From the IMG/VR virus record IMGVR_UViG_3300045009_000939, positions 1 to 20,028 of that record: 20,028 nt of DNA, one strand, 5' to 3'. Shown one piece after another: positions 213 to 20,028 of this stretch (positions are counted from its first letter, which is position 1; each line of letters opens with the position of its first letter). A program made the translations under genes and the position numbers. Source of the stretch: a virus. The notes beneath the pieces are model-generated. The model worked only from the letters and a program-made list of their open reading frames with translations. It searched no databases and had not been told where the DNA came from.

Positions 213-213
213 T

Positions 214-4478: not shown

Positions 4479-4501
4479 ATGTATAACTTTCTTTCTCTTG
4501 C

Positions 4502-4541
4502 ACAATAAAATTCGGTAAGAAAATTGTACAATAAAATTGTG
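4502..4541. repeat. Short AT-rich direct and inverted repeats
   Basis: ACAATAAAATT occurs at 4502-4512 and again at 4528-4538. The second copy is also part of an inverted repeat, ACAAT-AAA-ATTGT (4528-4540). The element lies between the endolysin start and the preceding small leftward frame, where a promoter or operator for the endolysin would be expected. No clear -35/-10 pair accompanies it, so a regulatory role is only suggested by position. Confidence 0.4.
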
Positions 4542-4551
4542 ATAAGAATAA

Positions 4552-4662
4552 TTACTCTGGTTCTTTGTAAATAATTTTGTAAATACTTAAATGTTTTATC
4601 CAATCGAGTCCGTCGCCAGCGATTTCTCCCGCAGGTTCTTCTTCTTTCTTTTTCGCCGTCAC
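4552..4662 (-). CDS. Possible 36-aa acidic/basic microprotein
   Basis: A GTG-initiated leftward frame encoding MTAKKKEEEPAGEIAG, then DGLDWIKHLSIYKIIYKEPE. It has a lysine/glutamate-rich head and an amphipathic tail with W, Y and I, which is protein-like rather than random. Its GTG sits one base past the TGA (4664-4666) of another open leftward stretch, consistent with translational coupling, and it lies in line with the endolysin. There is no strong ribosome-binding site. No family recognised; at this length, evidence is thin. Confidence 0.42.
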   Translation of the reverse strand: MTAKKKEEEPAGEIAGDGLDWIKHLSIYKIIYKEPE

Positions 4663-4663
4663 A

Positions 4664-4957
4664 TCATTTAACTAAAATTTCTTTTGTTTTTTCCAAAACG
4701 TCCAAGTCTTGTTTTGGTACATTTGTGTCCTATGATTCGATTTCTTTTCCTGTCGGCTGCTTTGGCCCTTCTGTTTCTGGTCCTTCTGTTTCTGGCGTGG
4801 TATCTTGTTTTTCGTTCTCTAAAGATTGTTCGGAAGTACGTGATGGGACGTCTTGACGCCCTGGAAGAATTGGAATTGTTTGTCGAGTCCCATCGGGATG
4901 AGGTATTTTCTCGGGAAGAGTAGTCTGTGCTGAATCTGTTCCGTCTGGTTCAGAATC
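4664..4957 (-). pseudogene. Pro/Glu/Thr-rich leftward frame, no start codon and one in-frame amber stop
   Basis: From a TAA at 4958-4960, one leftward frame stays open for 75 codons (starting DSEPDGTDSAQTTLPEKIPH and ending in a PETEG-PETEG repeat and GKEIES). It meets a TAG at 4730-4732, then continues for 21 highly protein-like codons (DTNVPKQDLDVLEKTKEIL) to a TGA at 4664-4666. It contains no ATG, GTG or TTG upstream of the amber. It could be a decayed gene, a sequence with a base error, or a recoded frame. A competing rightward frame (4732-4923) occupies the opposite strand, and both cannot easily be real. Genes elsewhere in the window end in TAG, so global amber recoding is unlikely. Confidence 0.3.
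4732..4923 (+). CDS. Possible small single-span membrane protein (63 aa)
   Basis: A rightward frame embedded among leftward genes. It begins MIRFLFLSAALALLFLVLLF and continues with LAWYLVF, so there is one clear membrane helix (about residues 3-27), then a basic stop-transfer stretch (RSLKIVRKY) and an amphipathic acidic helix (RLDALEELELFVESHRDEVF). This resembles tiny membrane proteins of marine phages. Against it: there is no ribosome-binding site before the ATG, the strand is opposite to its neighbours, and the antisense of a PETEG repeat would produce leucine/phenylalanine-rich sequence by chance. I cannot decide between the two strands. Confidence 0.4.
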   Translation: MIRFLFLSAALALLFLVLLFLAWYLVFRSLKIVRKYVMGRLDALEELELFVESHRDEVFSREE

Positions 4958-4967
4958 TTATTTAAAG

Positions 4968-6065
4968 TTATTTATTATTAGTACACAAGATAGAACGCAT
5001 TGTTGCGTCCCAATCTTCCCCACGTTTATCCATTGAAAAATTACTAAGTAATAAATGATTTTCTCTAACTTCATCTCTTCTCATTGAAAAATCAAGTAGT
5101 TCATCCAAATGATAAATCCATTCATTTGGTGTTTGGGCCACTCTCCCAATACCATTGTCAGCCAAATATTTGTACTCTGGAGAATAAGAACTAACAAAAG
5201 GAATACCAGCGGCGGCATATTCCAAACCTTTTATGAACGACTTAGCGTAGTTAAATTCAATATTATTTAAAGGAACTATACCCACATCAATATCTTTGAA
5301 AGAAGTTGGGTAATCAAGAATTGGCACCAAAGGTGATGTTTTTACTAATTTTTCATTTATATTTAAAAGTTTAGATGCCTTTGGAGCATGATTAACATGC
5401 CCCGAATGTTTAAATAAAATTTTTCTTAAATTTATGTATGAACCAAAAAAAGAACTTAGCTGTTCTAAATCATTTGAACGCCAGTGTGTTGCGCCAACCC
5501 ATCCAATTTTTATTTTTTTTGAAGTGTTTAAATTTCTTGGTTTCCATCTACGCAAATCAATTCCGTTACGAACCATAAAAACATTTTTTCTTAATTTAGA
5601 ATAGTAATCTTTTAAAAACGGGGTCGACGTTATTACAGCATCAGCAGCGAGAATTATTTCTTTGTATATTTCTCGATTTGAATTAGGATTATTTTTTGGG
5701 TCCGTTGCGGCGTGAGCCATATTCGATTTAGCCAATCCATCAAACCAATCATCAACGTCAACAACAATTTTTTGACCACGAGACTGAGCAATCGGAATTG
5801 ATTGTAAAACTTCTTTTTGCATAAGAAGTTTAAAAACAACTATGTTCCATCCATGAACAGCCCTATCTCCATCAATTAGTAGACCAAATCCACGTTGCGA
5901 ATTAAATCCTGGAAAACCAACCGTCGAGCTCCAGCCGCGTTTGTTCAATTCGTGAGATGGTAAAACACACCTGTACCACGCACAACCATTTGGTTGTAGC
6001 GGTTCTGTTCCCCACGACCAATCATGCGTCAAAAATGCCACTGTGGGCTTTAATGGTTTTTTCAT
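4968..6065 (-). CDS. GT-B fold glycosyltransferase (GT4-like)
   Basis: 365 aa. The N-terminal half carries a phage-typical glycosyltransferase opening (PNGCAWYRCVLPSHELNKRG) and the VVDVDDWFDGL segment (about 101-111). The C-terminal half has VRNGIDLRRW (about 165-174), KIGWVGATHW (about 186-195), and the donor-site region DVGIVPLNNIEFNYAKSF followed by IKGLEYAAAGIPFVSS (about 260-293). K-S-F-I-K-G-L-E-Y-A-A-A-G-I-P corresponds to the conserved acidic helix region of GT4 enzymes. It should transfer a sugar from a nucleotide donor to an unknown acceptor, such as phage DNA, a virion protein or the host envelope. The DNA is the most AT-rich in the window, with many A/T third positions, unlike the fibre genes that follow, suggesting separate acquisition. 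No ribosome-binding site is obvious before the ATG at 6065. Confidence 0.86.
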   Translation of the reverse strand: MKKPLKPTVAFLTHDWSWGTEPLQPNGCAWYRCVLPSHELNKRGWSSTVGFPGFNSQRGFGLLIDGDRAVHGWNIVVFKLLMQKEVLQSIPIAQSRGQKIVVDVDDWFDGLAKSNMAHAATDPKNNPNSNREIYKEIILAADAVITSTPFLKDYYSKLRKNVFMVRNGIDLRRWKPRNLNTSKKIKIGWVGATHWRSNDLEQLSSFFGSYINLRKILFKHSGHVNHAPKASKLLNINEKLVKTSPLVPILDYPTSFKDIDVGIVPLNNIEFNYAKSFIKGLEYAAAGIPFVSSYSPEYKYLADNGIGRVAQTPNEWIYHLDELLDFSMRRDEVRENHLLLSNFSMDKRGEDWDATMRSILCTNNK

Positions 6066-7090: not shown

Positions 7091-8410
7091 ATGGCGCAAA
7101 AGTTTTTGACTAACATAAACCTTAATCAGAACCAACTGATTAATGCTTCGTTTGAGGTTCTTGCCAGCGACCCGGGTTCGGGCAACTTCGAGGGTCGCCT
7201 CATCTACAACTCCACCACCGACACCATCAAGGTGTATGCCAATGGTGCGTGGCGCTCGCTCCCGCACACCATCGTCTCCGGCGGCGGTGCCGGAATTGCC
7301 GAGGCACTCACCGTCTCCGAATCGAACGGAACAATCACTCTCACGCTGAATGTTGCCGATACGGACAGCGCTGGCTTGTTGTCTGCCGAGTTTTGGAATT
7401 TGCTGACCAACTCCACATCGGACGCGACGGCGTCCACTCTCGCCAAGCGCGACGCAAGCGGAAGGCTCAAGGTTGCAACTCCCTCCGATGCGGCACATGC
7501 CGCCACCAAGGGTTACGTCGACGCCGCAAGACAGGGCCTCGACGTCAAGCAGTCGGTTCGCGCCGCGACGACCGCCGCGGTCAACATGGCGACCGATTTG
7601 GAGAACGGTGATGTCATTGACGGCGTCACCCTCGCGACCGGAGACAGAGTCCTCGTCAAAGACCAAGGTGGCCCGGGAGTCGCGCACGTCGACAACGGCA
7701 TTTACGTCGTCCAGGCGAGCGGCGCTCCGATTCGCTCGAGCGACGCGAACGGAACCGCCGACACCGGCGAGATTTCCGCCGGCACGTTCACCTTCGTCGA
7801 GGAAGGTACGGCGAACGCCGACCACGGCTTCGTCGTCTCCACGAACGGAACAATCACGGTCGGAAGCACGGCGATTGCCTTCACGCAGTTCTCCGGTACC
7901 GGCTCATTTACCGCTGGCGACGGTTTGTCGAAAGACGGCAACACGCTCAACGTCAACGTCACGGCGAACAGGACGCAGATTACAGCGGACGCAGTGGACA
8001 TCGCCTCCACCTATGTCGGTCAGTCGAGCATCACCACCCTCGGCACGATTACGACCGGTACGTGGAACGCGACCGATGTTGGTGTTGCCCACGGTGGTAC
8101 CGGAGCATCCGACGAGGCGACCGCAAGAACCAACCTTGGTACGAAGACTTCTGCCGGCGCGGTCACCACTTCCACCTCCACGCTCGCTCGCGTCGCCGCG
8201 CAGGGAAACACGGCGCACGCGTCGGGTACGTCCACCACGACGGTGACGCACAATTTCAACACCACCGATGTCATCGTCCAGGTGTACGAAATCGCCACGG
8301 GCGAGACGGTGTTCGGCGACGTGACGCGACCCAATGCGGACACCGTTCAGGTCGTCCTGTTGGGCAATCATTCCGCGAACGCATTCCGAATCGTGGTCGC
8401 GGCGGTCTAA
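7091..8410 (+). CDS. Tail fibre protein (439 aa)
   Basis: A repetitive, Gly/Ala/Thr/Asp-rich fibre. In order: an N-terminal MAQKFLTNINLNQNQLINAS segment shared in style with the gene at 8470; a LIYNSTTDTIKVYANGAWRS unit (about 37-56); DAAHAATKGYVDAARQGLDV (about 133-152), the classic trimeric-fibre D-A-A-x-K-G-Y-V-D motif; a beta domain with DGVTLATGDRVLVKDQ and VDNGIYVV; GVAHGGTGASDEATARTNLG (about 331-350), another recurrent phage-fibre motif; and a C-terminal domain (VTHNFNTTDVIVQVYEIATG, about 385-404) resembling the preceding small protein. It is expected to be trimeric and virion-exposed. GAGGT lies 7 bases before the ATG. The coding DNA is markedly GC-richer than the left third of the window. 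Confidence 0.85.
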   Translation: MAQKFLTNINLNQNQLINASFEVLASDPGSGNFEGRLIYNSTTDTIKVYANGAWRSLPHTIVSGGGAGIAEALTVSESNGTITLTLNVADTDSAGLLSAEFWNLLTNSTSDATASTLAKRDASGRLKVATPSDAAHAATKGYVDAARQGLDVKQSVRAATTAAVNMATDLENGDVIDGVTLATGDRVLVKDQGGPGVAHVDNGIYVVQASGAPIRSSDANGTADTGEISAGTFTFVEEGTANADHGFVVSTNGTITVGSTAIAFTQFSGTGSFTAGDGLSKDGNTLNVNVTANRTQITADAVDIASTYVGQSSITTLGTITTGTWNATDVGVAHGGTGASDEATARTNLGTKTSAGAVTTSTSTLARVAAQGNTAHASGTSTTTVTHNFNTTDVIVQVYEIATGETVFGDVTRPNADTVQVVLLGNHSANAFRIVVAAV

Positions 8411-8469: not shown

Positions 8470-9051
8470 GTGGCACAAAAATTCGTTACACCGATAACCA
8501 TCAAGCAGTTGCAGTCGGCTGGGTCCGACGCGATAACGGTTTTCCTGAACGGCGAGGTGTATGGTCGCGTAAAACTCGAGGGTGGCGGTCGCATCTCGTG
8601 GAGCGACGGCACGGGAACGTACGACACGAATCTTTATCGCGACGGCGCGAACGTCCTCGCAACCGACGACATATTCAAAGCGCTGACCGCGCTCGTTTCC
8701 CCGACCACCGCCGGTGCTCCGTCGGTGAGCGTGCCCGACGGCGCGATTGCCGTCGACACGACCAACAACCGCCTGTACTTCAGGTCGAACTCCACTTGGC
8801 GAGTCGTGCAGGGCGGCGCGACGGTTTCCGCCGATGCTCCGGCGAGCCCGCTCGAAGGCGCGCTGTGGTTCGACACCGACGAAGACACGCTGTACATCCG
8901 AGAAGGAAACGCGTGGGTCGTCGCTGGTGGCGGCGGCGGCGGTTTGATTTCGGCTGGCGACATTGACGGCGGAAATGCCGTGGAGGACATTTTGGAGGCA
9001 GAAGTAAGTAATTTTGTTTTGGCTTCTTTTGATGGAGGGACGACCCTGTAA
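8470..9051 (+). CDS. Tail fibre/structural protein (193 aa)
   Basis: Begins (from GTG) MAQKFVTPITIKQLQSAGSD and continues with VFLNGEVYGRVKLEGGGRIS, SDGTGTYDTNLYRDGANVLA and TDDIFKAL. Two related units follow: GAIAVDTTNNRLYFRSNSTW-RV (about 91-112) and GALWFDTDEDTLYIREGNAW-VV (about 130-151). These match the phage-fibre pattern W/I-x-x-D-T-x-x-x-x-L-Y-x-x-x-x-x-x-W. A polyglycine stretch (about 153-158) follows. The start GTG at 8470 has GAGGT 6 bases upstream; a TTG at 8458 is possible but overlaps that site. The opening MAQKF is shared with the 7091 gene, suggesting a common attachment segment. The stop shares one base with the next ATG. Confidence 0.78.
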   Translation: MAQKFVTPITIKQLQSAGSDAITVFLNGEVYGRVKLEGGGRISWSDGTGTYDTNLYRDGANVLATDDIFKALTALVSPTTAGAPSVSVPDGAIAVDTTNNRLYFRSNSTWRVVQGGATVSADAPASPLEGALWFDTDEDTLYIREGNAWVVAGGGGGGLISAGDIDGGNAVEDILEAEVSNFVLASFDGGTTL

Positions 9052-11351
9052 TGGCTGGCGCAAGGATTCAACTCAAACGAGCGACTGCGGCCTCCTGGGC
9101 CTCCGCCAACTCGGTGCTTTACGCTGGCGAAATCGGACTTGAGACCGATACCAACAAATTCAAGATTGGCGACGGAAGTACGGCATACAGTTCGCTCCCG
9201 TATTTCAACGGGAACCTAACCGGCTCAAGCCTGAATGATTTGTTGGATGTCGTAATCACCAGCGCTTCAAACGGCGATTTTCTGCGTTGGAACGGAACCA
9301 ATTGGGTAAATGACGCGGTAAACCTCTCCGTGGATACGGTCGGCGACTACGTCGAGTCGCTCGTTGCCGGCACGGGAGTCACCGTTACCAACAATTCAGG
9401 CGAGGCCGCTACTCCAACGATAGCAATAGGACAAAGCGTCGCCACGAACGCTTCGGTTACCTTCAACAGCGTTTCCGCAAACGTCACCGGCAACGTCACC
9501 GGCAACGTCACCGGAAATGCCGATACCGCCACAACTCTCGCCACTGCCAGAACGATTTCGCTCAGCGGCGACGTCTCCGGCTCGGTGTCGTTCGACGGTT
9601 CGGCGAGTGTGGACATTGTCGCGACCATTCAGTCGAACAGCGTCGCTCTCGGCACGGACACGACCGGAAACTACGTCCAAAGTCTCGTCGCGGGAACCGG
9701 GATAACGCTCAGCGACAACTCCGGCGAGGGCGCGACCCCAACCGTCGCAGTGACGGCAGGGACTTTCGATGCTTACGGTGCGGCGGCGAATGCGGAAAGC
9801 AACGCCGCGACAGCATTGAGCAATCACGAATCCGACACGACCAACATTCACGGAATTGCGGATACGTCCGTTCTCGTGACTTTGGCGGGCACGCAGACCC
9901 TCGTCAACAAGACACTCACGAGCCCGACGATTACTGGAATTTCGCCACAAATTACACTCTCTGGCGATTTGACAGGTTCGGTGACGCTTACCGACCTCGG
10001 CAACGGCACATTGACCGCAACCGTCGCCGCCAACTCGGTCGAACTCGGCACCGACACCACCGGAAATTACATGTCGGATGTTACGGCCGGAACGGGAATA
10101 AGCGTCACGCACACCCAAGGCGAAGGTTCGAATGCCACGATTGCCATCGATGCCACGCTCGATGAACTTTCCGATGTCAGCGCGGCGTCACCGACGGAAG
10201 GTCAATTCCTCAAGTGGAACGGAACGGCATGGGTGCCAGATGACATTCCGACCATCAACACCCTTGACGACGTTGGCGATGTCACCATCACGGAAACGGC
10301 GTCGGGTCAATTTCTTAAGTGGAATGGAAGCGCCTGGGTGAATGATGCGATTGACCTCGGCACCGACACGACTGGCAACTATGTTTCTGATGTAACAGCA
10401 GGGACGGGCGTCTCTGTAACACACACGCCAGGCGAGGGTTCAAGTCCGACCATCGCCATCGGTCAGTCCGTCGCCACGAACGCCAACCCATCGTTTGCCG
10501 GAGCGACCCTCGATGCGGTGCAAATTGGAATTACCGCTGCTGGCGAAATCGATACGACTGCCGGCGATTTGACGATTGACTCGGCTGGCGGCACGGTAAC
10601 GGTCGATGACAACCTGACCGTCACGGGCAACCTGACCGTCTCAGGGACGACGACGACCATCAATACCGAGACACTGACGGTGGACGACAACATCATCGTC
10701 CTGAACAACAACGCAACCGGCGCCCCATCCGAGAACGCAGGCATCGAAGTCGAGCGCGGCTCTTCGGCAAACGTTCAGTTGCGCTGGAACGAGACGAGCG
10801 ACAAATGGGAGTTCACGGACGACGGAACAAATTTCTATGAAATTGCCTCAGTCAATTATGTTGACCAAAACGTCATCTCTTCGCTTGACGACATCGGCGA
10901 CGTAACAATCACCTCTGCGTCTACCGGGGAGTTCCTGAAATGGAGCGGAAGCGCCTGGGTCAATGATGCGATTGACCTAGGTACCGATACAACTGGAAGT
11001 TATGTGCAGTCGCTCGTCGCCGGTACGGGGATAACTCTTACCAACAACTCCGGCGAGGGCGCGACACCGACGATTGCGGTGACTAGCAATACCTTCGAAG
11101 CACACGGTGCAGTTGCTTCCCACGAGGCTGACACGACCAACATTCACGGAATCGCCGATACCTCGGTTCTTGTCACTCTCACTGGAACGCAAACTCTCAC
11201 GAATAAAACGCTGACCAGTCCGTCGCTCACCGGCACCCCCACTGCGCCAACGGCAACATCTTCGACCAGTTCGACACAAATAGCAACCACGGCATTTGCT
11301 GCAACCCTGCAAAGAGATTCCTTGGTAAGGTTCTACATGGAGGTAATTTGA
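9051..11351 (+). CDS. Large repetitive tail fibre with Mtd-like N-terminal domain (766 aa)
   Basis: Residues about 5-52 (RIQLKRATAASWASANSVLY, AGEIGLETDTNKFKIGDGST, AYSSLPYF) match the major-tropism-determinant N-terminal domain family, which attaches fibres or receptor binders to the tail. The rest is built from recurring modules: A, an LDDVGDVTIT...GQFLKWNGSAWVNDA type (about 61-90, 370-398, 404-434, 611-641); B, a GTDTTGNYVQSLVAGTG...NNSGEGATPTIAV type (about 96-127, 201-235, 333-366, 437-471, 643-678); C, DTTNIHGIADTSVLVTL...TQTLTNKTLTSP (about 261-296, 693-727). A shaft segment with NLTVTGNLTVSGTTTTINTE (about 521-540) is a common marine-phage fibre signature. The end has STSSTQIATTAFAATL, a frequent C-terminal fibre motif. 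Expected to be a trimeric virion fibre. It ends 1 base before the next gene. Confidence 0.88.
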   Translation: MAGARIQLKRATAASWASANSVLYAGEIGLETDTNKFKIGDGSTAYSSLPYFNGNLTGSSLNDLLDVVITSASNGDFLRWNGTNWVNDAVNLSVDTVGDYVESLVAGTGVTVTNNSGEAATPTIAIGQSVATNASVTFNSVSANVTGNVTGNVTGNADTATTLATARTISLSGDVSGSVSFDGSASVDIVATIQSNSVALGTDTTGNYVQSLVAGTGITLSDNSGEGATPTVAVTAGTFDAYGAAANAESNAATALSNHESDTTNIHGIADTSVLVTLAGTQTLVNKTLTSPTITGISPQITLSGDLTGSVTLTDLGNGTLTATVAANSVELGTDTTGNYMSDVTAGTGISVTHTQGEGSNATIAIDATLDELSDVSAASPTEGQFLKWNGTAWVPDDIPTINTLDDVGDVTITETASGQFLKWNGSAWVNDAIDLGTDTTGNYVSDVTAGTGVSVTHTPGEGSSPTIAIGQSVATNANPSFAGATLDAVQIGITAAGEIDTTAGDLTIDSAGGTVTVDDNLTVTGNLTVSGTTTTINTETLTVDDNIIVLNNNATGAPSENAGIEVERGSSANVQLRWNETSDKWEFTDDGTNFYEIASVNYVDQNVISSLDDIGDVTITSASTGEFLKWSGSAWVNDAIDLGTDTTGSYVQSLVAGTGITLTNNSGEGATPTIAVTSNTFEAHGAVASHEADTTNIHGIADTSVLVTLTGTQTLTNKTLTSPSLTGTPTAPTATSSTSSTQIATTAFAATLQRDSLVRFYMEVI

Positions 11352-11352
11352 T

Positions 11353-11715
11353 ATGCCATTGACACAAAAACGACTGGTTGGTCCGACCCAACTTACGACT
11401 ACGACGACTACGGTTCTTTACACCGTGCCACAGAGCACGACCACCATCGTGAAGCAGATTATCCTCTGCAACACCACGGCGTCTGCCGTCACGGTGACAT
11501 TGGTGTGCAAGCCGCTAAACGTCACGCAGGCTTCGTCGCAGAATTTCTTCAACGCCCTTTCCATTGCGGCGAACGAAACATTGACTTTCCAGACGAACCT
11601 TGTCTTGACGAACAACGGCAGCACGGCGAACGCCACCAACAGCGACCAAATTATTGGTTCCGCAAGTTCCAACTCGGCAGTCAATATCTTCCTGAACGGA
11701 GTTGAGGAATCGTAA
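11353..11715 (+). CDS. Small Thr/Asn-rich virion protein (120 aa)
   Basis: Begins MPLTQKRLVGPTQLTTTTTT and reads as an all-beta protein: VLYTVPQSTTTIVKQIILCN, TTASAVTVTLVCKPLN, ALSIAANETLTFQTNLVLTN, and the end SNSAVNIFLNGVEES. The pattern Y-T-V-P-x-x-x-T-T-x-x-x-x-I-x-x-C-N-T-T followed by L-x-x-N-E-T-L-x-F is a recurrent small structural protein next to phage fibres. Its alternating strands suggest a jelly-roll or Ig-like fold, but the role (fibre cap, chaperone, decoration) is not known. It shares one base with the next gene's ATG. Confidence 0.72.
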   Translation: MPLTQKRLVGPTQLTTTTTTVLYTVPQSTTTIVKQIILCNTTASAVTVTLVCKPLNVTQASSQNFFNALSIAANETLTFQTNLVLTNNGSTANATNSDQIIGSASSNSAVNIFLNGVEES

Positions 11716-12452
11716 TGGTCGCAAGTTTTGTTCGCCTGAACAACACGTCGCTTTCAACAGCGGAGTCCACATCGAGTATCTCCGGCTCACTGGTGAACTT
11801 GGCGAGTTTTTTGAACCTTCCCGACCCCGTATATGGGAGTGGGGCGGACGGCGATGGAACGATTGCGGCAGATACGACCATGTCTCGTGATTTTTTCTAC
11901 AGAAATCTGACCGTTAACGCCAACATCAAATTGAACCCCGGCGGTTTCAGGTTGTTCGTCCAAAATGTTCTCACGTTGAACAGCGGTTCCGAAATCGGCT
12001 ACACCACGGGATTTTCGACCGCAGGCTCACTCGCTCAGGGCGGTGCGACGAATACGGCGGTCACCCACAGTCTCGGTGGTTCGAGCGGCGCACAAACGGC
12101 GACTGCGCCGACGGCGGCGCTTGGCGGTACGGCGTACTACCAGCAACCGTTGCAGGCAATTCGCGGTTGGGCGGTGACGGCATCATCGGTGACTCCCACG
12201 TTTCTAAGAGGGGGTGCGGGCGGGTCTTCCGGTGCCGGTGGCGGTGTCGTTCTAATTTCTGCTCGGTACATAACCGTTTCCTCCGGAACGGCGTCTTTCA
12301 AAGCACCGGGAACCTCCGGTGCCGGAGGTGGTGGCGGGGGCGTAATTCTCATCGTGTCTTCTGCTTCGGTCCTCAATGCGTCAATATCAACCGACGTGAC
12401 GGGGGGAACGGGCGCATCGGTCGGCACCGTGAACTACATGCAGGTGGCGTGA
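11715..12452 (+). CDS. Glycine-rich adhesin-like tail protein (245 aa), paralogue of the next gene
   Basis: After a short N-terminus (MVASFVRLNNTSLSTAESTS) comes a block GSGADGDGTIAADTTMSRDF, FYRNLTVNANIKLNPGGFRL and FVQNVLTLNSGSEIG (about 41-95) that is clearly repeated in the next gene. The C-terminal part has glycine-rich stretches (RGGAGGSSGAGGGVVLISAR at about 165-184; SGAGGGGGGVILIVSS at about 201-216) alternating with short beta strands. Such strand/polyglycine alternation is known from tail-tip adhesins of T4-like phages (gp38 type), where glycine loops carry host specificity, and from parallel-beta glycine-rich surface proteins. I infer a receptor-binding tail-tip protein. It ends one base before the next ATG. 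Confidence 0.75.
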   Translation: MVASFVRLNNTSLSTAESTSSISGSLVNLASFLNLPDPVYGSGADGDGTIAADTTMSRDFFYRNLTVNANIKLNPGGFRLFVQNVLTLNSGSEIGYTTGFSTAGSLAQGGATNTAVTHSLGGSSGAQTATAPTAALGGTAYYQQPLQAIRGWAVTASSVTPTFLRGGAGGSSGAGGGVVLISARYITVSSGTASFKAPGTSGAGGGGGGVILIVSSASVLNASISTDVTGGTGASVGTVNYMQVA

Positions 12453-12453: not shown

Positions 12454-13743
12454 ATGGCAATCGAAAGACTCGTAACAAAAAGAAACCCGGTACAAAAAAC
12501 CGGCACTGACAAGTTGTTCGGTGCCGGCAGTGACGGAACGGTGACGATTTCAACCAACACTTCGCTTGCCCGCGACATGTATTACGCCAACCTGACCGTG
12601 AATGCTGGCGTCACGTTGTTTACGAACGGCTTCAAGATATTCGTAAGCGGAACGTTGACAAACAACGGAACAATCGGAATGCCGACCGGAACGGCACAGA
12701 CCACTAGCGTTCTGGCGGGTTCGGTGATGACGCGAATCGACGGAAACGCCGCATACGTTGCGGCTGATGCACTTGGCGCAAACCTGGCAATAGCCGAAGT
12801 GCGAGACATAGAAACGTTGATTTCTGGCGTCATGCAAAAAGGAGCGAACAGACGGGTGTTTTGGTCGGGCTCGGCTGGCACTACGGGAAATCCCGGCTCG
12901 GCGAACCCCGGCGGCGGCGGCGCAGCGAATCCCGGCTCTGCGGGAAGCGGCGGCTCCGCCGGAACGGGGGGTGGCTCGGTCGTCGTGTTGGCAAAATCAA
13001 TCAGTGGTTCCGGAACTTTCGTAAGCCAAGGTACGGCCGGAGGTTCAGGCAACCCGGGGAGTTCTGGTTCGAGCGTTTCCGGCAATCCCGGCCACAACCC
13101 ACAAGGTCACTCGCCTGGTCACAATCCGGGAGGTCACTCGCCTGGTCACAATCCAGGAGGTCACTCGCCTGGTCACAACCCCCAAGGACATTTCCATTCG
13201 CCAGGCAGCGAGTCCCACGCTCACAATCCCCCCGGACATTTCCATTCGCCAGGCAGCGAGTCCCACGCTCACAATCCCCCCGGACATTTCCATCATGATG
13301 GCCACCATCAAGCGCCGAATTGCCAACACGATACACACCATCACCATGGCCACTGTGCTGGTCATCATCCCGGTCACCATAACCCGAGCCACCAGCACAC
13401 CAATCCGGGCAATTCGCATCCCCACCATAACCCGAGCCACCAGCACCAAAATCCGGGTAATTCGCATCCCCACCATAACCCGAGCCACCAGCACACCAAT
13501 CCGGGCAATCCTTTCCATTTCTCCCACCCGGGCAATCCTTTCCATTTCTCCCACCCGGGCAATCCGTTCCATTTCTCCCACCCGGGAAATCCTTTCCACA
13601 ATCCCTCCCATGCTGGGGGTACCGCAAATCCGGGAAACAGTGGAAATCCCGGAGGTACCGGCAGTTTGGTGGTCCTGACCCGAGGAATCACCACGCACGT
13701 CGCATCCTCGAACCTGACCTACGTGGAGGACTTGGATGACTGA
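12454..13743 (+). CDS. Adhesin-like tail protein with a large tandem-repeat histidine-rich insert (429 aa)
   Basis: Residues about 23-72 (FGAGSDGTVTISTNTSLARD, MYYANLTVNAGVTLFTNGFK, IFVSGTLTNNG) parallel the preceding protein. Glycine-rich segments (about 144-175, 195-213) and SLVVLTRGI (about 404-412) match its C-terminal half. Between them, residues about 214-387 hold roughly 50 histidines with Pro, Asn, Gly and Ser, almost no charge, and two cysteines flanking a D-T-H-H-H-H-G-H core (C290, C301). The segment is made of four tandem-repeat families (see repeat entries). It sits where the paralogue has only a short polyglycine loop, so it looks like an expanded loop. It may bind metals (Zn, Ni, Cu, Fe), protonate with pH, or form polyproline/polyglycine-type helices. 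I expect a virion tail-tip protein; the ligand is unknown. It overlaps the next gene by 8 bases. Confidence 0.82.
   Translation: MAIERLVTKRNPVQKTGTDKLFGAGSDGTVTISTNTSLARDMYYANLTVNAGVTLFTNGFKIFVSGTLTNNGTIGMPTGTAQTTSVLAGSVMTRIDGNAAYVAADALGANLAIAEVRDIETLISGVMQKGANRRVFWSGSAGTTGNPGSANPGGGGAANPGSAGSGGSAGTGGGSVVVLAKSISGSGTFVSQGTAGGSGNPGSSGSSVSGNPGHNPQGHSPGHNPGGHSPGHNPGGHSPGHNPQGHFHSPGSESHAHNPPGHFHSPGSESHAHNPPGHFHHDGHHQAPNCQHDTHHHHGHCAGHHPGHHNPSHQHTNPGNSHPHHNPSHQHQNPGNSHPHHNPSHQHTNPGNPFHFSHPGNPFHFSHPGNPFHFSHPGNPFHNPSHAGGTANPGNSGNPGGTGSLVVLTRGITTHVASSNLTYVEDLDD
13105..13185 (+). repeat. Tandem repeat 1: three 27-bp units (GHSPGHNPG)
   Basis: Three head-to-tail 27-base copies, nearly identical in DNA, each encoding GHSPGHNPG (last copy ends Q). 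Identity at synonymous positions indicates recent duplication, so copy number may vary by slippage or recombination. A partial unit (GHNPQ) precedes it. Confidence 0.9.
13186..13281 (+). repeat. Tandem repeat 2: two 48-bp units (GHFHSPGSESHAHNPP)
   Basis: Two consecutive 48-base copies encode GHFHSPGSESHAHNPP, followed by a partial third (GHFH). The copies appear essentially identical in DNA. The unit contains H-x-H pairs, a common metal-binding spacing. Confidence 0.9.
13375..13509 (+). repeat. Tandem repeat 3: 48-bp units (HHNPSHQHTNPGNSHP)
   Basis: Two full copies and most of a third encode HHNPSHQHTNPGNSHP with one T/Q difference. The same NPSHQH core is regularly spaced every 16 residues. 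It follows a unique His-rich stretch (13282-13374) holding the two cysteines. Confidence 0.88.
13504..13611 (+). repeat. Tandem repeat 4: 27-bp units (GNPFHFSHP)
   Basis: Three copies of a 27-base unit encode GNPFHFSHP, followed by a diverged fourth (GNPFHNPSH). Small synonymous differences (CCT/CCG, GGC/GGA) separate the copies. Phenylalanine alternates with histidine, giving an amphipathic strand-like pattern unlike the other repeat families. Confidence 0.9.
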
Positions 13744-14044
13744 TACCGATTACAGTGGTAGAATTACTACTAGAATTTCATCTGTATCCGAGTATTACAG
13801 GAGCCCCAGAATGCCCTACGAGTTTTCGATGCTTGCCCCCGAGGACATCGCGCAAGAGACGGCTCGAGTCCAGAAGGAACTTGAGCGCCAGTTGTACGGC
13901 GCCATTCTGAAATTGGGTGTGGACCCCAAAGAGTATGACACCGCCACGCACGTCGTTCCGGAGGATGAGACGACACCCGATTATCAGACGAAACTGGACA
14001 TTGCGCGAATCCTGAGCAATCTCGCATTCATCGAATCCCTCTAA
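13736..14044 (+). CDS. Hypothetical protein (102 aa) at the end of the tail module
   Basis: Begins MTDTDYSGRITTRISSVSEY. The N-terminal 35 residues are Ser/Arg/Tyr-rich and probably extended; the remainder (APEDIAQETARVQKELERQL, YGAILKLGVDPKEYDTATHV, TKLDIARILSNLAFIESL) is helical and soluble. A GGAGG 7 bases before the ATG at 13736 decides the start. It overlaps the adhesin gene by 8 bases, so it is co-translated with it and could be a chaperone or partner of the adhesin, as small genes after receptor-binding proteins often are. That role is inference; no family recognised. Confidence 0.7.
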   Translation: MTDTDYSGRITTRISSVSEYYRSPRMPYEFSMLAPEDIAQETARVQKELERQLYGAILKLGVDPKEYDTATHVVPEDETTPDYQTKLDIARILSNLAFIESL

Positions 14045-14047
14045 GTT

Positions 14048-14064
14048 TCGGCGCCGTGCGCCGA
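14048..14064 (+). terminator. Strong stem-loop separating tail genes from the auxiliary cluster
   Basis: TCGGCGC (14048-14054) and GCGCCGA (14058-14064) pair perfectly around a CGT loop; two further outer pairs (one a G-T wobble) are possible. It begins four bases after a stop codon and ends just before the first auxiliary gene. There is no T-run, so it may be a hairpin-only terminator or an attenuator giving lower expression downstream. Confidence 0.55.
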
Positions 14065-14086
14065 GAATATGTTAGGCTCCCTAGTC

Positions 14087-14698
14087 ATGGAACAAATGGA
14101 TGTTGCGCCGTGCTTGACGGTGTTCGAGAACGCGTTCAAACCGCAAAATTTCATTGAGTTGCTTGAGGACGAATGCAGGCAACAGTGGGGTTATGCCTCC
14201 TGGTATCTGACGTACGTCGGCTCCGAAGGTAAGCAGCGTCAGCAAGTCAATTACAGGTCGTCCCTCGCCTGCGAACTTCACCCCCTTTTGGTGCCTATCG
14301 AGCAGATTGCCGAGCCGAGAATAATTCCGCTGGCGAAACTTTGGCAATCAATCCACTCCGATTTGCAGACATGCGTTTGGTCGTACCGAAACGCCTACGA
14401 CCTGGAGGTCAGCCGTGACGAAGGTTTCGCTTGCCTGAAATACGGCCAGGGTGCCGAATATCGAGGGCACGTCGACCACGCCCCACAAAATCAGCGAGTT
14501 TTTTCCATCGTTGCCTTCGTCAACGACGATTTTGACGACGGGGAATTGGTGTTTCCTCATTTTGATGTATCAATCAAACCGAAGGCTGGTTCCGTCGCGG
14601 TATTCCCGTCAAATTTTCCTTATTATCATTTTGCGAGACCAGTCGGAACGACGAACGACACCGACACGAAGTATTCCCTGGTGACATGGTTTAGGTAG
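14087..14698 (+). CDS. 2OG-Fe(II) oxygenase (prolyl-4-hydroxylase-like), copy 1
   Basis: About 203 aa (numbered from the ATG at 14087). The double-stranded beta-helix signature is complete: Y-R-G-H128-V-D130 gives the H-x-D iron ligands; DDGELVFPHFDVSIKPKAGS and VAVFPSNFPYYHFARPV give strands and the distal histidine (H181); K195-Y-S-L-V-T-W-F supplies the 2-oxoglutarate-binding basic residue. The family couples 2-oxoglutarate decarboxylation to hydroxylation, demethylation or related C-H oxidation of proteins or small molecules; the substrate is unknown. An in-frame ATG at 14069 is only four bases from a strong hairpin, so I prefer 14087; 14096 is also possible. It is the first gene of the auxiliary cluster and ends 4 bases before the halogenase. 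Confidence 0.88.
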   Translation: MEQMDVAPCLTVFENAFKPQNFIELLEDECRQQWGYASWYLTYVGSEGKQRQQVNYRSSLACELHPLLVPIEQIAEPRIIPLAKLWQSIHSDLQTCVWSYRNAYDLEVSRDEGFACLKYGQGAEYRGHVDHAPQNQRVFSIVAFVNDDFDDGELVFPHFDVSIKPKAGSVAVFPSNFPYYHFARPVGTTNDTDTKYSLVTWFR

Positions 14699-14702
14699 CA
14701 AC

Positions 14703-16166
14703 GTGCTTCCGCGAGTGTGCATAGTCGGTTCGGGAACCTCGGGGTTGGTCGCGGCGATTCTTTTGAATTCTCTTTTTCCCAAAATGCAAATCACCGTGAT
14801 TTCATCGAAGGAAATCGGGATTATCGGCGTCGGGGAAGGCTCGACGGAGCACTGGCGCCAATACTTCCAAGAACCCTGCGGCATAGACGTCAACGAGATG
14901 ATTCGCAACACCGCCGGAACGCATAAATACGGCATAAAATTCGAGAACTGGACCACCCATACCCCGGCTTATTTCCACAGCGTGAGCGGAGAGGGATTCG
15001 GTCCGAATTTTTTCAACGCGACGTATTCATTCGCCCATTTCAATGACTGGCTTCTGACTCCGGCGATGATTACACATCTCGACAACAACAAAATCGTCGA
15101 CGACAAGGACAATCCACACAGAACGACTAATCAATTTCATTTCGACACATTCAAACTGAATTCGTATTTGACGGCGACGGCGGCCGACAGGAACGTCACT
15201 TTCGGCGAAGGCAAGGTGGCGAAAATTGAACGAAACCCAGAAAACGGATTCATAACGGCGATAATCACCGACACGAAACTAAAATGCGAAGCCGATTTTT
15301 TCATTGATGCCAGCGGGTTCAGTCGCGTCCTCATGTCAAAACTCACGGACAACGACGAATTCGTGAGTTACAGAAAGTACCTTCCCTGCGATTCAGCGGC
15401 GGTATTTCCGACCCCACCCGACGAGTCGGGGAACATTCGCCCCTACACGAGGGCCCGGGCCATGCCGAATGGTTGGATGTGGGAAATACCCACGCAAGAG
15501 CGACGAGGCAACGGCTACGTATTCGCATCGGACTTTTGCAGCGACGAACAGGCGGTCAGGGAGTTGTCGGAGGCGCACGGTCGCCAGATAGAACCAGCGA
15601 AAATAATCCGTTTCAAGTCCGGTTACTTCAAGAACGCAGTCCTGTTCAATTGTGCAAGTATTGGACTGTCGAGTTCTTTCGTTGAGCCGCTGGAGGCGAC
15701 GGCAATCACGACCAGTATCCAGCAAGCGCGAATGATTTCAACGATGCTCCCGACCTTTCACATCGGCAACAAGGCGCAGGTCAGGCAATACCAACAGCGA
15801 TACGAGAGTCTGTTGGAAAATATAGTGACCATGATTTCTCTGCATTATATTTCCGACAGAACCGATACCGAGATGTGGCGGGCTCAACAAAGCGCCGAAA
15901 TCCCGGAAACATTGTCACAATTGTTGGCGTTGTGGAAGGAGAGAATGCCGGAACAGTTTGACGTTCCGGTTTTCGGCTACGAGATGTTCGGCTCGGCGCA
16001 TCTGTGGCACGTCGCGCAAGGTCAAGGCATACTCGACAAAAACGTAGCACTCGCTCAATTGAACGCATACTTGTCGCATTCTGCTTGCTCAAAGACGTTC
16101 GCCAACAAGAAAGCAGAGCAGGCCAAAACGAGGAAAATCGACCATGCGCTTGTTTTCAAGACGTAA
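14703..16166 (+). CDS. Flavin-dependent tryptophan-halogenase-like enzyme (487 aa)
   Basis: Full length for the family. Visible features: the FAD-binding G-S-G-T-S-G (9-14); the GIIGVGEGST turn (39-48); catalytic lysine K75 in THKYGIKFENW, equivalent to K79 of PrnA/RebH; DASGF (202-206); the diagnostic W-x-W-x-I-P motif as W258-M-W-E-I-P263; and SSFVEPLEATA (324-334), where E331 matches the second catalytic glutamate (E357 of RebH, from memory). The canonical E-S-T-G there reads E-A-T-A, so the chloride-binding loop is slightly altered. Family chemistry: FADH2 and O2 convert halide to HOCl/HOBr, which the lysine delivers to an aromatic substrate, in known cases free tryptophan, indoles or peptides. 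A flavin reductase is needed and none is encoded here. Start is GTG (14703). It overlaps the next gene by 23 bases. Related genes have been reported in marine cyanophages. The substrate is unknown. Confidence 0.9.
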   Translation: MLPRVCIVGSGTSGLVAAILLNSLFPKMQITVISSKEIGIIGVGEGSTEHWRQYFQEPCGIDVNEMIRNTAGTHKYGIKFENWTTHTPAYFHSVSGEGFGPNFFNATYSFAHFNDWLLTPAMITHLDNNKIVDDKDNPHRTTNQFHFDTFKLNSYLTATAADRNVTFGEGKVAKIERNPENGFITAIITDTKLKCEADFFIDASGFSRVLMSKLTDNDEFVSYRKYLPCDSAAVFPTPPDESGNIRPYTRARAMPNGWMWEIPTQERRGNGYVFASDFCSDEQAVRELSEAHGRQIEPAKIIRFKSGYFKNAVLFNCASIGLSSSFVEPLEATAITTSIQQARMISTMLPTFHIGNKAQVRQYQQRYESLLENIVTMISLHYISDRTDTEMWRAQQSAEIPETLSQLLALWKERMPEQFDVPVFGYEMFGSAHLWHVAQGQGILDKNVALAQLNAYLSHSACSKTFANKKAEQAKTRKIDHALVFKT

Positions 16167-16989
16167 TCGCCCGACAATCAAGCCGGGGATATGGGAAAAT
16201 TTGCCAGTCCCAAAGCCGAACGAAATCTTCGCCGCACCGGTGGACAATCGCCTGTGGCATCCGAAACTCGCCCTTCGGACCAGCAGGAGTCGAACACCCG
16301 ATTGGTTCAGGGACCTTCCCCACGGAGAATTGAGCCTAAAGCGATGTTACGGCGTCGCCGACTTCCTGAGAACCGGGTACGTCCTCCCGTTGTGGGCGAC
16401 CTTGGATGTCAGGCTACCAATCAACAAACTTAACACCCGATGGGACGCGAGATTCGACGGGATTGCATCCGAACTGTTCAGGGTCGAATCGCTCAGCGAG
16501 AAGGACAAGCAGTATTTTTTCAGCCAACACGCCCTGTCCAATAATCAATTTGGGTCTCAACAAACTGGCGGCGATTGTCCGGTGGCGCATAAAAAACCGC
16601 GAGAATCTTCCTACCTCAAATTGCCGACGCCGTGGGTGGTGAGGACCGCGCCGGGTTGGTCGTCGTTGTTCTTGCCAGTGCTATGGGAACCCAATGAAAA
16701 TTACGAAGTGCTGGGCGCGGTGGTGCACACGGACTACTATCCGAACGGGAATCTGGTGATGAACATACTCACGAACCAACCATTCAGAATTGAGGAGGGA
16801 ACGGTGATGCAGCACATTATCCCGTTCAAGCGAGACGCTTCCATACTCGATACGGAGGTTTTGAGGGGCGACGAATCCGCGCACAAATTATTGCACAATA
16901 CGGGGTTCGGCGCGGTATTCACCGGCAAGGAGGACATGCACGGCGGCTACAAGCGCGAACAAAAACGATTAGACAATGAGATGAACTGA
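16144..16989 (+). CDS. Unknown phage protein, possibly DUF6065-like (281 aa)
   Basis: The core at about 72-90 (ADFLRTGYVLPLWATLDVRL) and 159-230 (KLPTPWVVRTAPGWSSLFLP, then AVVHTDYYPNGNLVMNILTN and RIEEGTVMQHIIPFKR) resembles a phage family of unknown function that I associate with DUF6065; the assignment is from memory of the pattern. The strand-turn pattern F-x-I-x-x-G-T-x-x-x-x-x-I-P-F-K-R suggests a beta-rich fold, superficially like dUTPase/dCTP-deaminase beta-clips, but no catalytic motif of those is evident. The C-terminus (GGYKREQKRLDNEMN) is charged. AGGA lies about 9 bases before the ATG inside the halogenase 3' end. Coupling to the halogenase by a 23-base overlap and to the next gene by one base suggests a shared pathway. 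Confidence 0.75.
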   Translation: MRLFSRRNRPTIKPGIWENLPVPKPNEIFAAPVDNRLWHPKLALRTSRSRTPDWFRDLPHGELSLKRCYGVADFLRTGYVLPLWATLDVRLPINKLNTRWDARFDGIASELFRVESLSEKDKQYFFSQHALSNNQFGSQQTGGDCPVAHKKPRESSYLKLPTPWVVRTAPGWSSLFLPVLWEPNENYEVLGAVVHTDYYPNGNLVMNILTNQPFRIEEGTVMQHIIPFKRDASILDTEVLRGDESAHKLLHNTGFGAVFTGKEDMHGGYKREQKRLDNEMN

Positions 16990-17447
16990 TGTACCGCGTC
17001 GTATTTCTCCCGGAGGATGCCGCCGTCGAGGATGCATATTCCCTGGCGTCGGAATGGGGATTGAGCATTCAGCACGGAGATTCACCGAGAACAGAACCGT
17101 TGGACTTCGACCGCTCGAAAATTCAGATTCTTTCGATACCGATAGACAAAGGCTTCGAATACGAAAAGGCAACATTCCGAACAAATGAACCGATTTCAAT
17201 TAAATACAGCAACGACCACGAGAACGTCAAAGATTATTCATTTTTCATGAGACCGGACGGCATCAGGGTCGGCAAAACCTGGTCCGTTCCCTCAATGTTG
17301 ATGGATGACCATAGGGCCGTCATGAACATCTCCGTCTCCTTCCCCGGAAAATATGAACTCGTTTCGGTGAGAGACGGAATCGAACAGGATACGGTCACCT
17401 TGATAGTTTTGGGACCGAACGACGACGCCGAAGGGGTTGATGAATGA
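16989..17447 (+). CDS. Hypothetical protein, probably beta-rich (152 aa)
   Basis: Begins MYRVVFLPEDAAVEDAYSLA. The first ~35 residues look alpha/beta; the rest (KATFRTNEPISIKYSND, YSFFMRPDGIRVGKTWSVPS, AVMNISVSFPGKYELVSVRD, DTVTLIVLG) alternates strands and turns like an Ig-like or carbohydrate-binding beta-sandwich. I do not recognise a family and see no catalytic signature. Its ATG shares a base with the previous stop and its TGA overlaps the next ATG, so it is locked in the operon between the DUF6065-like protein and the second oxygenase. It may be an accessory or substrate-presenting subunit; that is speculation. Confidence 0.72.
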   Translation: MYRVVFLPEDAAVEDAYSLASEWGLSIQHGDSPRTEPLDFDRSKIQILSIPIDKGFEYEKATFRTNEPISIKYSNDHENVKDYSFFMRPDGIRVGKTWSVPSMLMDDHRAVMNISVSFPGKYELVSVRDGIEQDTVTLIVLGPNDDAEGVDE

Positions 17448-18172
17448 TTGAACACATAGGTCACAAATCAACCCACATCGCCGTAGTGCCCGACATTGTT
17501 TCTCCGGATGTCTGCAACGACCTCCTGGAGGCTTGTCGGAAGGATTGGGAAAAATTGTTTTACCCGGGTCCAACGCTCGCCGGCGTCGACCCGACGATAA
17601 AACTTACAATGGACTTCGATTTCAGCGGACATCAAGCGGCCGAAAAGGGCGCAGATTATGCGACTTACCAATACCCGGAAAACAAAATAGCGGAATCGCT
17701 GCGAACATCAATATCCCTATACCTTGAGGCATATTCGGAACTAAAGGCCGCGCCGAGTTTAAGGGATTCGGGCTTTCGCCTACAACGTTACACGAAAGGT
17801 TTCGGCTTTTACCGTTCCCACCACGACGGCGCTCCGTGGGACCCGGAGCCGACATGCAACAGAATTCTGGGAATCGTGATATATCTCAACACCGTCGAGC
17901 GCGGCGGCGAGACGTGGTTCCCGCTGCACGACGTGAAGGTCAAGGCTCGCGCTGGCTCGATAGCGATTTTCCCGGCCACATGGACACATCCGCACCAATC
18001 GTGCGTCCCAATTTCATCGGACAAATGGATAGTCAGTTCCTTCATACTGTCCGATAAGCGACCCCCATCGGTCAACGAACCGCAACAGTCGAAATCCGTC
18101 CCCGACGCTCCCGTCACGCTGATTGACACCAATCCGGAAAACCAAAGTGCGCAACACGATGCCGACCAATGA
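17444..18172 (+). CDS. 2OG-Fe(II) oxygenase (prolyl-4-hydroxylase type), copy 2
   Basis: 242 aa. The catalytic core runs from RLQRYTKGFGFYRSHHDGAP (about 112-131), with H126-x-D128 as iron ligands, through GIVIYLNTVERGGETWFP (about 143-160) and VKARAGSIAIFPATWTHPHQ (about 166-185), with the distal histidine at H182 (or H184), to K194-W-I-V-S-S-F-I as the 2-oxoglutarate anchor. R-G-G-E-T-x-F-P is the strongest hallmark of P4H-type dioxygenases. The final ~40 residues after SDKRPPS are Pro/Gln/Asp-rich and probably disordered. GAAGGGG lies 7 bases before the ATG, which overlaps the previous stop. Of the three oxygenases this most resembles protein prolyl hydroxylases; the substrate remains unknown. 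Confidence 0.9.
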   Translation: MIEHIGHKSTHIAVVPDIVSPDVCNDLLEACRKDWEKLFYPGPTLAGVDPTIKLTMDFDFSGHQAAEKGADYATYQYPENKIAESLRTSISLYLEAYSELKAAPSLRDSGFRLQRYTKGFGFYRSHHDGAPWDPEPTCNRILGIVIYLNTVERGGETWFPLHDVKVKARAGSIAIFPATWTHPHQSCVPISSDKWIVSSFILSDKRPPSVNEPQQSKSVPDAPVTLIDTNPENQSAQHDADQ

Positions 18173-18812
18173 TTTCCCCATTCTGATTAGACAACTCGTC
18201 CCAGACGAGGGCATGCGACGACGGTTCAGTTCCCACCATAGAGGGATGGAAACGTATAGAGACGAGGATTGGGCGAGAATGTCAAACGACATTCCACTCA
18301 TTCCGCAACTCTGCAACCCCAAGGTAGATGTTTCTTTTTGGTCAATTATTTATGATTGTGCGAAACGGTATTTTCCCGAGGAGGCAGTCGCCTCTTACTG
18401 GAAGTGGGTCAAGTACTCCCCGTTGTTGGGCAACCCGAAACTTCCCCCACACGTGGACCTGAACGCGTGCACCTTCACGATTGACCTACAATTGGACGGA
18501 AATATCGATTGGGAACTGTACGTGGAGGGTACGCCCTATCTCATGCGTAACGGCGATGCGCTTTTGTATATGGGTTCAGACCAGATGCACTGGCGCCCCA
18601 AATACCCCAGCGAAAACATAAAATCGTATCTGGAAATGTGCTTCATTCATTTCGTCGAACCAGGGCATTGGTACCACCTCAAGGGGCCTCGGCACATAAA
18701 TTCGGACGAAGTGCGGCTTCCGTGGAAAGAAAAGATGCTAGGGTTGCTGGCGCAATACAAATGCGATACTTTCCAACCGCTCGGCGACGAGGAGAACTTC
18801 AATGGATACTAA
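18159..18812 (+). CDS. 2OG-Fe(II) oxygenase-like protein, copy 3
   Basis: 217 aa from the ATG at 18159, which overlaps the previous gene by 14 bases; a TTG at 18123 is less likely. Iron ligands can be read as H98-V-D100 in GNPKLPPHVDLNACTFTIDL and H144 in DALLYMGSDQMHWRPKYPSE. WELYVEGTPYLMRNGDALLY is typical of the phage/cyanophage 2OG oxygenase group that ends G-D-x-x-x-Y-x-G-x-x-x-H-W-R. The R/K that binds 2-oxoglutarate may be R146 or K148; the usual late basic residue is less clear than in the other copies. It is only distantly similar to copies 1 and 2, so the three are not recent duplicates. Substrate unknown. The next small gene starts inside its last codons. Confidence 0.8.
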   Translation: MPTNDFPILIRQLVPDEGMRRRFSSHHRGMETYRDEDWARMSNDIPLIPQLCNPKVDVSFWSIIYDCAKRYFPEEAVASYWKWVKYSPLLGNPKLPPHVDLNACTFTIDLQLDGNIDWELYVEGTPYLMRNGDALLYMGSDQMHWRPKYPSENIKSYLEMCFIHFVEPGHWYHLKGPRHINSDEVRLPWKEKMLGLLAQYKCDTFQPLGDEENFNGY

Positions 18813-18954
18813 AACACTCAGGAGATTGGCAAAGCAGTACGGCATTCCCGAAACCGAGGACATACGCGATTGCATACCCGTGCCGCAAAGTCCGGACGAT
18901 TGGCTTTTTGCGCCGGTCTTGAAATGGGTGAAGGAAAAACTCGGACTTGATTAA
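18802..18954 (+). CDS. Small hypothetical protein (50 aa)
   Basis: A short, well-supported gene: MDTKTLRRLAKQYGIPETED, then IRDCIPVPQSPDDWLF, ending LKWVKEKLGLD. GAGGAG lies 7 bases before the ATG. It overlaps the previous stop by 11 bases and the next start by 8, filling the only gap in the operon. The N-terminal helix (RRLAKQYGIP) looks like a recognition or docking helix, and the whole is a compact helical miniprotein. No family recognised. Confidence 0.65.
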   Translation: MDTKTLRRLAKQYGIPETEDIRDCIPVPQSPDDWLFAPVLKWVKEKLGLD

Positions 18955-19243
18955 GCCCAAAGACATCGCCGAGATATCCAAGCAGTGGTTCACTCGTTCA
19001 TACTGGAACAGGGTCAACACCATTGAGGCATGGGCATTCGCAACCAAAATATGCATCATTTTTCCGGGGTTGCTCTTCGGCAAGCAGTGGTGGTGGTTGT
19101 ATATTTTCGCCCTTCTTTCGAGTTTGGCGCTCGTATTGACGTCGACCATAAAAACCCTTCCGACGATTATTTGGTTCAACATCGCCTGGATTTGCTTAGC
19201 CATCCTGTCGATTGTTAAGCACTTCACAGGGTTCGGGTCGTGA
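18947..19243 (+). CDS. Small multi-span membrane protein (98 aa)
   Basis: Starts at TTG (18947), overlapping the previous stop. A soluble N-terminus (MIKPKDIAEISKQWFTRSYW, about 1-30) is followed by two or three membrane segments: ATKICIIFPGLLF (about 32-44), WWWLYIFALLSSLALVLTS (about 48-66) and IIWFNIAWICLAILSIV (about 74-90). A cluster of tryptophans marks the interface. It resembles the unknown small membrane proteins found with these auxiliary genes in marine phages. It could anchor the cluster's enzymes or transport a substrate; neither is shown. Its stop overlaps the next GTG. Confidence 0.68.
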   Translation: MIKPKDIAEISKQWFTRSYWNRVNTIEAWAFATKICIIFPGLLFGKQWWWLYIFALLSSLALVLTSTIKTLPTIIWFNIAWICLAILSIVKHFTGFGS

Positions 19244-19989
19244 CCGAAACGATTACTTTATATTGGGCACCTGCACACGGACTCGGTAGTCAATACGATT
19301 ATTGCCACCTGTACCCCGAGCCGCTAACCCTGTACGAGGAATTGACGCCCTACAAAGCCGACCTGAAAGACAACCGAGACGATTACCTTCGTTGCCCGGC
19401 GGTGAGCAACAGGCTGAAAAAAACCTTCGTGTTTCGCTCGGTCACGAACACCAATGTTCGGGTAATTGACCAATCGCACGTTTCGTACGAAATCACCTCG
19501 AATGACGACCAGCGAAGACATCAGACGACGGTGGAGTTACTGCACAAGCAAACCCTGAACAATCACCTGTTATTGAATTATTCGCATCCGGTTATTTTCT
19601 TTACGGACGTGGAATCGCTGACGGTCTCCATCACGGCACCGTTCTTTCAAAAGACCGCGCACTCCCAATACGGAGTCATCGTACCCGGGGAGTTCGACGT
19701 CGCCAAATGGTTCAGACCCATGAATTTTGAATTTCAATTATGGGAAGGCGTCAATGAATTGAGGGTGCCCGTCGGGGACCCGCTCGCATATTTTGAGTGT
19801 CAGACCGATGCGAAAGTCGTGTTGAGAAAATTCTATTTGACGCCGCATTTGAACAAATTGTCCAGTTCGCTGATACACGTGCAACCCCACCGACGCTTTG
19901 CCAAACTAAAAGAAAAGTACCGTCTGTTCGAACAGGCAAAATTGAGCAAAGGAATACTCAGGGAGATTCAAGCAAATTTGATGGATTAG
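19240..19989 (+). CDS. Unknown marine-phage-type protein (249 aa)
   Basis: GTG start, overlapping the previous stop. It begins MTETITLYWAPAHGLGSQYD and continues YPEPLTLYEELTPYKADLKD, YLRCPAVSNRLKKTFVFRSV, NYSHPVIFFTDVESLTVSIT, FDVAKWFRPMNFEFQLWEGV and VPVGDPLAYFECQTDAKVVL. The order Y-W-A-P, C-P-A-V-x-x-x-x-K-x-T-F-V-F, G-E-F-D-x-x-x-W-F-R-P and F-x-x-x-x-G-D-P-x-x-Y-F is one I recognise from a recurrent unknown family of marine tailed phages; it is beta-rich with a helical C-terminal tail. No catalytic site is identifiable. Its consistent company with 2OG oxygenases and halogenase here suggests the same pathway. After its stop only 39 bases remain, with no feature seen. Confidence 0.75.
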   Translation: MTETITLYWAPAHGLGSQYDYCHLYPEPLTLYEELTPYKADLKDNRDDYLRCPAVSNRLKKTFVFRSVTNTNVRVIDQSHVSYEITSNDDQRRHQTTVELLHKQTLNNHLLLNYSHPVIFFTDVESLTVSITAPFFQKTAHSQYGVIVPGEFDVAKWFRPMNFEFQLWEGVNELRVPVGDPLAYFECQTDAKVVLRKFYLTPHLNKLSSSLIHVQPHRRFAKLKEKYRLFEQAKLSKGILREIQANLMD

Positions 19990-20028
19990 GACTTGATTGT
20001 TCTATCGGCGAAATTCAACCCGCTGAAT

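Follow-up and report, generated by a model that had tools for sequence, protein, structure and literature searches.

Why should a virus of bacteria, probably of aquatic actinobacteria, encode next to its tail genes a protein in which almost every third residue of a long stretch is histidine, and what could such a stretch be for? We examined this question on a whole IMG/VR viral contig of 20,028 bases (IMGVR_UViG_3300045009_000939, hereafter the window). An earlier note, based on the sequence alone, had described about 50 histidines in roughly 174 residues, four families of tandem repeats and two cysteines around a central histidine cluster, and this description proved correct in every particular that can be checked. 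The features of the window that bear on the question are as follows.

9051 to 11351, plus strand: tail fibre / minor tail protein with an Mtd_N domain (P0003), a tail-fibre-like protein of 766 aa with internal repeats (TNIHGIADTSVLVTL, LDDVGDVTIT)
11353 to 11715, plus strand: conserved 120-aa protein upstream of the following gene pair (phrog_20100, unknown function)
11715 to 12452, plus strand: His-poor paralogue (P0002), 245 aa, directly upstream of the His-rich gene in about 40 relatives
12454 to 13743, plus strand: gene of the 429-aa glycine/histidine-rich tail-region protein (P0001)
12454 to 12873, plus strand: its N-terminal domain, residues 1-140, with predicted beta-helix strands, shared with P0002
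12874 to 13092, plus strand: glycine-rich blocks (residues 141-174 and 192-213) around a beta hairpin (175-191), with Gly at period 3
13093 to 13614, plus strand: His-rich hypervariable insert, residues 214-387
13093 to 13173, plus strand: repeat family 1, HNPGGHSPG x3 (27 nt)
13174 to 13293, plus strand: repeat family 2, HNPPGHFHSPGSESHA x2.5 (48 nt)
13303 to 13374, plus strand: central Cys/His loop HHQAPNCQHDTHHHHGHCAGHHPG, a candidate metal or disulphide site and the best-conserved part of the insert
13375 to 13509, plus strand: repeat family 3, HHNPSHQHTNPGNSHP x2.8 (48 nt)
13501 to 13598, plus strand: repeat family 4, NPFHFSHPG x3.6 (27 nt)
13615 to 13740, plus strand: third glycine block and C-terminal beta strand returning to the core
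14069 to 14698, plus strand: 2OG-Fe(II) oxygenase, prolyl-4-hydroxylase-like (Pfam PF13640)
14703 to 16166, plus strand: flavin-dependent tryptophan halogenase homologue (Pfam PF04820, E 2.9e-98)
17444 to 18172, plus strand: second 2OG-Fe(II) oxygenase

We found that the insert holds 50 His, 31 Pro, 23 Gly, 20 Asn and 18 Ser in 174 residues, with only two Asp, two Glu, no Lys or Arg, and two Cys at residues 290 and 301, whereas the remaining 255 residues of the protein contain a single His. Against a background of 2.1% His in the other ORFs of the window, this corresponds to a binomial probability of about 4e-41. Tandem Repeats Finder detected four arrays (27 nt x3.2, 48 nt x2.5, 48 nt x2.8 and 27 nt x3.6) with scores of 144-242, while codon-shuffled arrays never exceeded a score of 85 in 200 shuffles. 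Full repeat units differ by 0-4 nt, so the expansions are recent. Two antisense ORFs that cover the array (13001-13627 and 13045-13698) are most simply explained as shadows of a stop-poor repeat, since a close relative (contig L003) has only shorter antisense ORFs there and gave no support for a second gene.

Young and nearly identical repeats could indicate an assembly artefact or a neutral expansion without function, and the absence of the array from related phages had been named in the earlier note as an outcome that would overturn its observation. The opposite was found. A protein search detected the insert in L003, and a search with the N-terminal domain then recovered seven distinct close relatives on other contigs (L003, L004, L005, L007, L008, L010 and L011), all with the insert at the same place but with other repeat numbers. 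A ten-sequence profile reached 277 viral relatives, of which 80 loci were kept, and 47 of 50 distinct complete viral members carry a His-rich insert (at least 10 His in some 100-residue stretch) at the same site, with different wording and length. Some of these inserts are hardly repetitive, and the longest was seen in a member of 1,123 residues with 95 His (L099). The exact copy number in the window rests on one assembly, as a contig identical to the window over 13588-20028 (L026) ends inside the last repeat; the recurrence of the feature in dozens of independent contigs, with flanks that stay His-free, nevertheless makes an artefact or a functionless expansion very improbable. Homologues in bacterial genome assemblies lack the insert, apart from a modestly His-bearing one on contig PBNR01000075.1 (L121), which is binned as a Gammaproteobacteria MAG but is probably a misbinned phage contig.

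Searches of Pfam, the PDB and deposited phages with the whole protein gave no hit, and a PDB search with the array alone gave none either. PHROGs returned only a family of unknown function (phrog_13336), and tblastn found neither P0001 nor P0002 in 50,697 deposited phage records. A DNA pattern for the Cys/His motif matched only the contig of L003 and an unrelated protease region. The papers searched contain no description of such a domain, although this absence is weak evidence because only openly licensed papers were covered, and the protein appears to be an undescribed type of phage surface protein, although what it binds is unknown.

The architecture of the protein suggests how the insert may be presented. 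The N-terminal domain is shared with the paralogue P0002 (hhalign E 9.9e-28), which is almost free of His in all relatives (0-3 His) and stable in length. In the glycine blocks on both sides of the insert, Gly recurs at every third residue (period-3 ratios 1.83 and 2.54, z 19 and 22), a polyglycine-II-like pattern of which the insert itself shows only a weak trace (1.22, z 3); the continuous Gly-X-Y repeats of a collagen-like protein are therefore not present. AlphaFold2 predicts confident strands and Gly segments (residues about 21-80, with pLDDT 72-89, 141-210 and 381-412) but leaves the insert unstructured (pLDDT 31-37). As half of the full model is disordered, Foldseek/VIA comparisons with it were uninformative, and giant-virus collagen-like proteins in BFVD aligned only with high rmsd over low-complexity sequence and were not pursued. 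P0002, folded instead, gave a confident, strand-rich and beta-helix-like model (pLDDT 88, pTM 0.82), whose best solved matches are generic beta-helices (Z up to 5.9), too weak to assign a family.

The surroundings of the gene point to a tail module. The Mtd_N tail-fibre gene lies upstream, the pair P0002-P0001 is conserved in about 40 loci, homologues occupy the same gene position in more than 40 viral loci, and portal and TerL genes are present on the overlapping contig. Left of about 6 kb, the GC content of the window is 0.35-0.45, against 0.46-0.62 to the right, and most of the left-hand genes have few or no matches in the related loci, though a VanY/PG-binding endolysin (3651-4505) does; our data did not distinguish a natural mosaic from a chimera in this region (1-6000). 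That the array lies inside a phage tail adhesin, as the earlier note proposed, is well supported by architecture and context, though not by experiment.

The note also proposed that the array binds metal, so that the tail tip engages siderophore or metal receptors of the host or is stiffened by the metal. Metal binding is plausible for any stretch with 29% His, as His-rich stretches bind Zn, Cu, Ni or Fe in vitro, and it has one specific support: in the window and six of the seven close relatives (not L011), the best-conserved part of the insert is a loop HH...C-x1-2-H...C with C-X7-10-C spacing and a His two or three residues after the first Cys, followed by HHPGHHNPxHQH-like (HPGHHNPxHxH-like) sequence. 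Outside this sub-lineage the Cys are rearranged or missing, with at least 10 of 48 His-rich members lacking any Cys, and there is no fixed ligand pattern across the family. In 31 non-redundant inserts (His 18.8%, Gly 15.3%, Asn 10.6%, Ala 10.4%, Pro 10.1%), His pairs at spacings 1-4 are rarer than in shuffled sequences, and HxH pairs, the iron-binding motif of T4 gp37 that was also predicted in Alteromonas phage R22Y (PMC11705849), are depleted (ratio 0.79, z -4.3), although the window insert alone has 13 HxH. No metal evidence exists, and bound iron was not measured here. A metal that folds and stiffens the otherwise disordered insert, or makes the tail tip a metal-loaded probe, is thus possible but doubtful as the key property.

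The siderophore-receptor part of this proposal is unlikely in view of the probable hosts. WhiB (PF02467), which is used as a marker of actinophages (PMC6802176, PMC10202952), was found in 17 of 24 related contigs with this gene, including all 15 of at least 65 kb in that search, but in 0 of 7 contigs of insert-free homologues. For the window itself the host assignment is by kinship and is not settled by this marker, as WhiB was not found on the overlapping 44-kb contig and none was recognised among the window's own ORFs. Actinobacteria have no outer membrane and no TonB-type siderophore receptors in it. Taken together, the interpretation offered in the earlier note is partly supported. Its alternative, a pH-sensitive switch in which His protonation changes the charge and conformation of the tip near the cell wall, seems improbable: the insert is almost free of other charges, so protonation would dominate its charge, but nothing in our data is specific for this reading and natural waters are usually above the pKa of His.

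An unexpected pattern emerged downstream of the adhesin gene. The order P0004 - P0002 - P0001 - 2OG-Fe(II) oxygenase - flavin halogenase recurs among relatives, in which the cassette of two oxygenases and the halogenase (14069-18172) is conserved. Of 42 distinct His-rich loci with at least 2.3 kb of downstream sequence, 40 have an oxygenase, 41 a halogenase and 40 both within 3.5 kb, against one (L121) of 17 His-poor homologues with both. The nearest solved relatives of the oxygenase are prolyl 4-hydroxylases (3itq/5hv0), and the halogenase is related to PrnA, RebH and cyanophage VirX1 and keeps the WxWxIP motif in the window (WMWEIP), a motif that a simple pattern match, not looked into further, found in only 18 of 49 related halogenase segments. 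X-Pro-Gly occurs 23 times in the window protein, and Pro and PG are enriched over cassette-free homologues (P 4e-8 and 1e-4). The one clearly His-poor family member on a WhiB-bearing contig (L083, 3 His in 452 residues) has no halogenase on its 35-kb fragment, a natural contrast case, which is suggestive only.

This suggests that the enzymes might hydroxylate and/or halogenate Pro, Asn, His, Tyr or Trp residues of the adhesin during assembly and so change its binding or its resistance to proteases. The association is, however, not corrected for kinship, two members with a less His-rich insert (L068 and L109) carry the enzymes upstream, the array has no Trp or Tyr, and most viral halogenases and oxygenases have no known substrate. 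Cyanophages also pair halogenase and 2OG oxygenases, but in the neighbourhoods checked no His-rich adhesin of this type was found; in Synechococcus phage S-H38, two genes annotated as 'DNA endonuclease V' next to its halogenase (7401-8033 and 10443-10934 of that record) match 2OG-Fe(II) oxygenase families in Pfam weakly, below cut-off, which suggests misannotation and the same pairing. We consider the modification hypothesis unlikely on present evidence, but not excluded. If true, a widespread family of uncultured actinophages would build its attachment protein from a chemically modified, His/Pro/Asn-rich hypervariable domain, which would give the orphan phage halogenases and oxygenases a substrate.

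In our favoured reading, to which we give a probability of roughly 55%, the array is the variable, probably surface-exposed part of a tail-region adhesin of an uncultured tailed phage that probably infects an actinobacterium. The analysis itself demonstrates the insert and its recurrence across the family, the conserved N-terminal domain, the flanking period-3 Gly blocks, the conserved neighbourhood, and a variability in which the insert diverges almost beyond alignment while staying about 19% His and almost free of charge, and in which repeat number changes between close relatives. From architecture and precedent we infer that the beta-helix and the polyglycine-II-like blocks form a rigid mount, from which the His/Asn/Pro/Gly insert protrudes as flexible, turn-rich loops that touch the host cell wall and glycopolymers, and that gain and loss of tandem repeats is how the phage varies this contact. 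In the sub-lineage of the window, a disulphide or a zinc/copper-type metal may pin the Cys/His loop, whereas metal loading of the rest is possible but not required. No experiment shows that the protein is in the virion or binds cells, and contact alone does not explain why His is retained, as the receptor segments of known gp38 adhesins are not known to be His-rich; whether metal, pH or enzymatic modification explains this is open, and the host-contact, metal and modification readings are not mutually exclusive. If the function is attachment, this family shows how phages of abundant aquatic actinobacteria, for which receptors are largely unknown, vary their binding, and its fixed neighbourhood makes the question of what the many phage halogenases and oxygenases act on directly testable.

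Glycine-rich hypervariable phage adhesins are already known; new here is a His-dominated hypervariable domain, nothing like which was found in deposited phages, solved structures or the papers searched, although nearly every member of this uncultured family has one. Compared with viral flavin halogenases (VirX1, cyanophage prnA) and phage 2OG-Fe(II) oxygenases, the window enzymes are homologues of these families, but form a fixed cassette directly behind a His-rich adhesin. The Ca. Nanopelagicales phages E7/F5 are freshwater actinophages whose tail-fibre and collagen-like genes likewise form a hypervariable island (PMC10202952), but no His-rich domain is described there. With the T4 gp37 needle and other HxH iron-binding tail fibres (the Ferrojan Horse hypothesis), the protein shares its tail-region position, its His and a conceivable metal binding, but no beta-needle is predicted over the array, its His lie in Gly/Asn/Pro turns, and its hosts probably lack TonB receptors. 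The closest plan is that of the gp38 adhesins of S16/T2-type phages, described as a beta-helix whose long turns form a polyglycine-II sandwich, with hypervariable segments between the polyglycine-II motifs that set the host range and are presumed or shown to contact the receptor (PMC6851490, PMC12892980). The protein shares with these the Gly-rich motifs with Gly at every third residue flanking a hypervariable segment. There is no sequence homology to S16 gp38 (hhalign probabilities 0.3% and 0.2%), and the beta-helix-like models leave a shared polyglycine-II lattice undecided, gp38 itself not having been among the structures aligned; attachment of the N-terminus to a trimeric gp37-like fibre, for which the long fibre-like P0003 is encoded upstream, was not modelled, as no complex prediction was run. 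We therefore say that the protein works like gp38 and not that it is a gp38: it carries one very long His-rich insert (roughly 60 to 760 residues in the family) instead of several short loops, and it has different gene neighbours and probably Gram-positive hosts.
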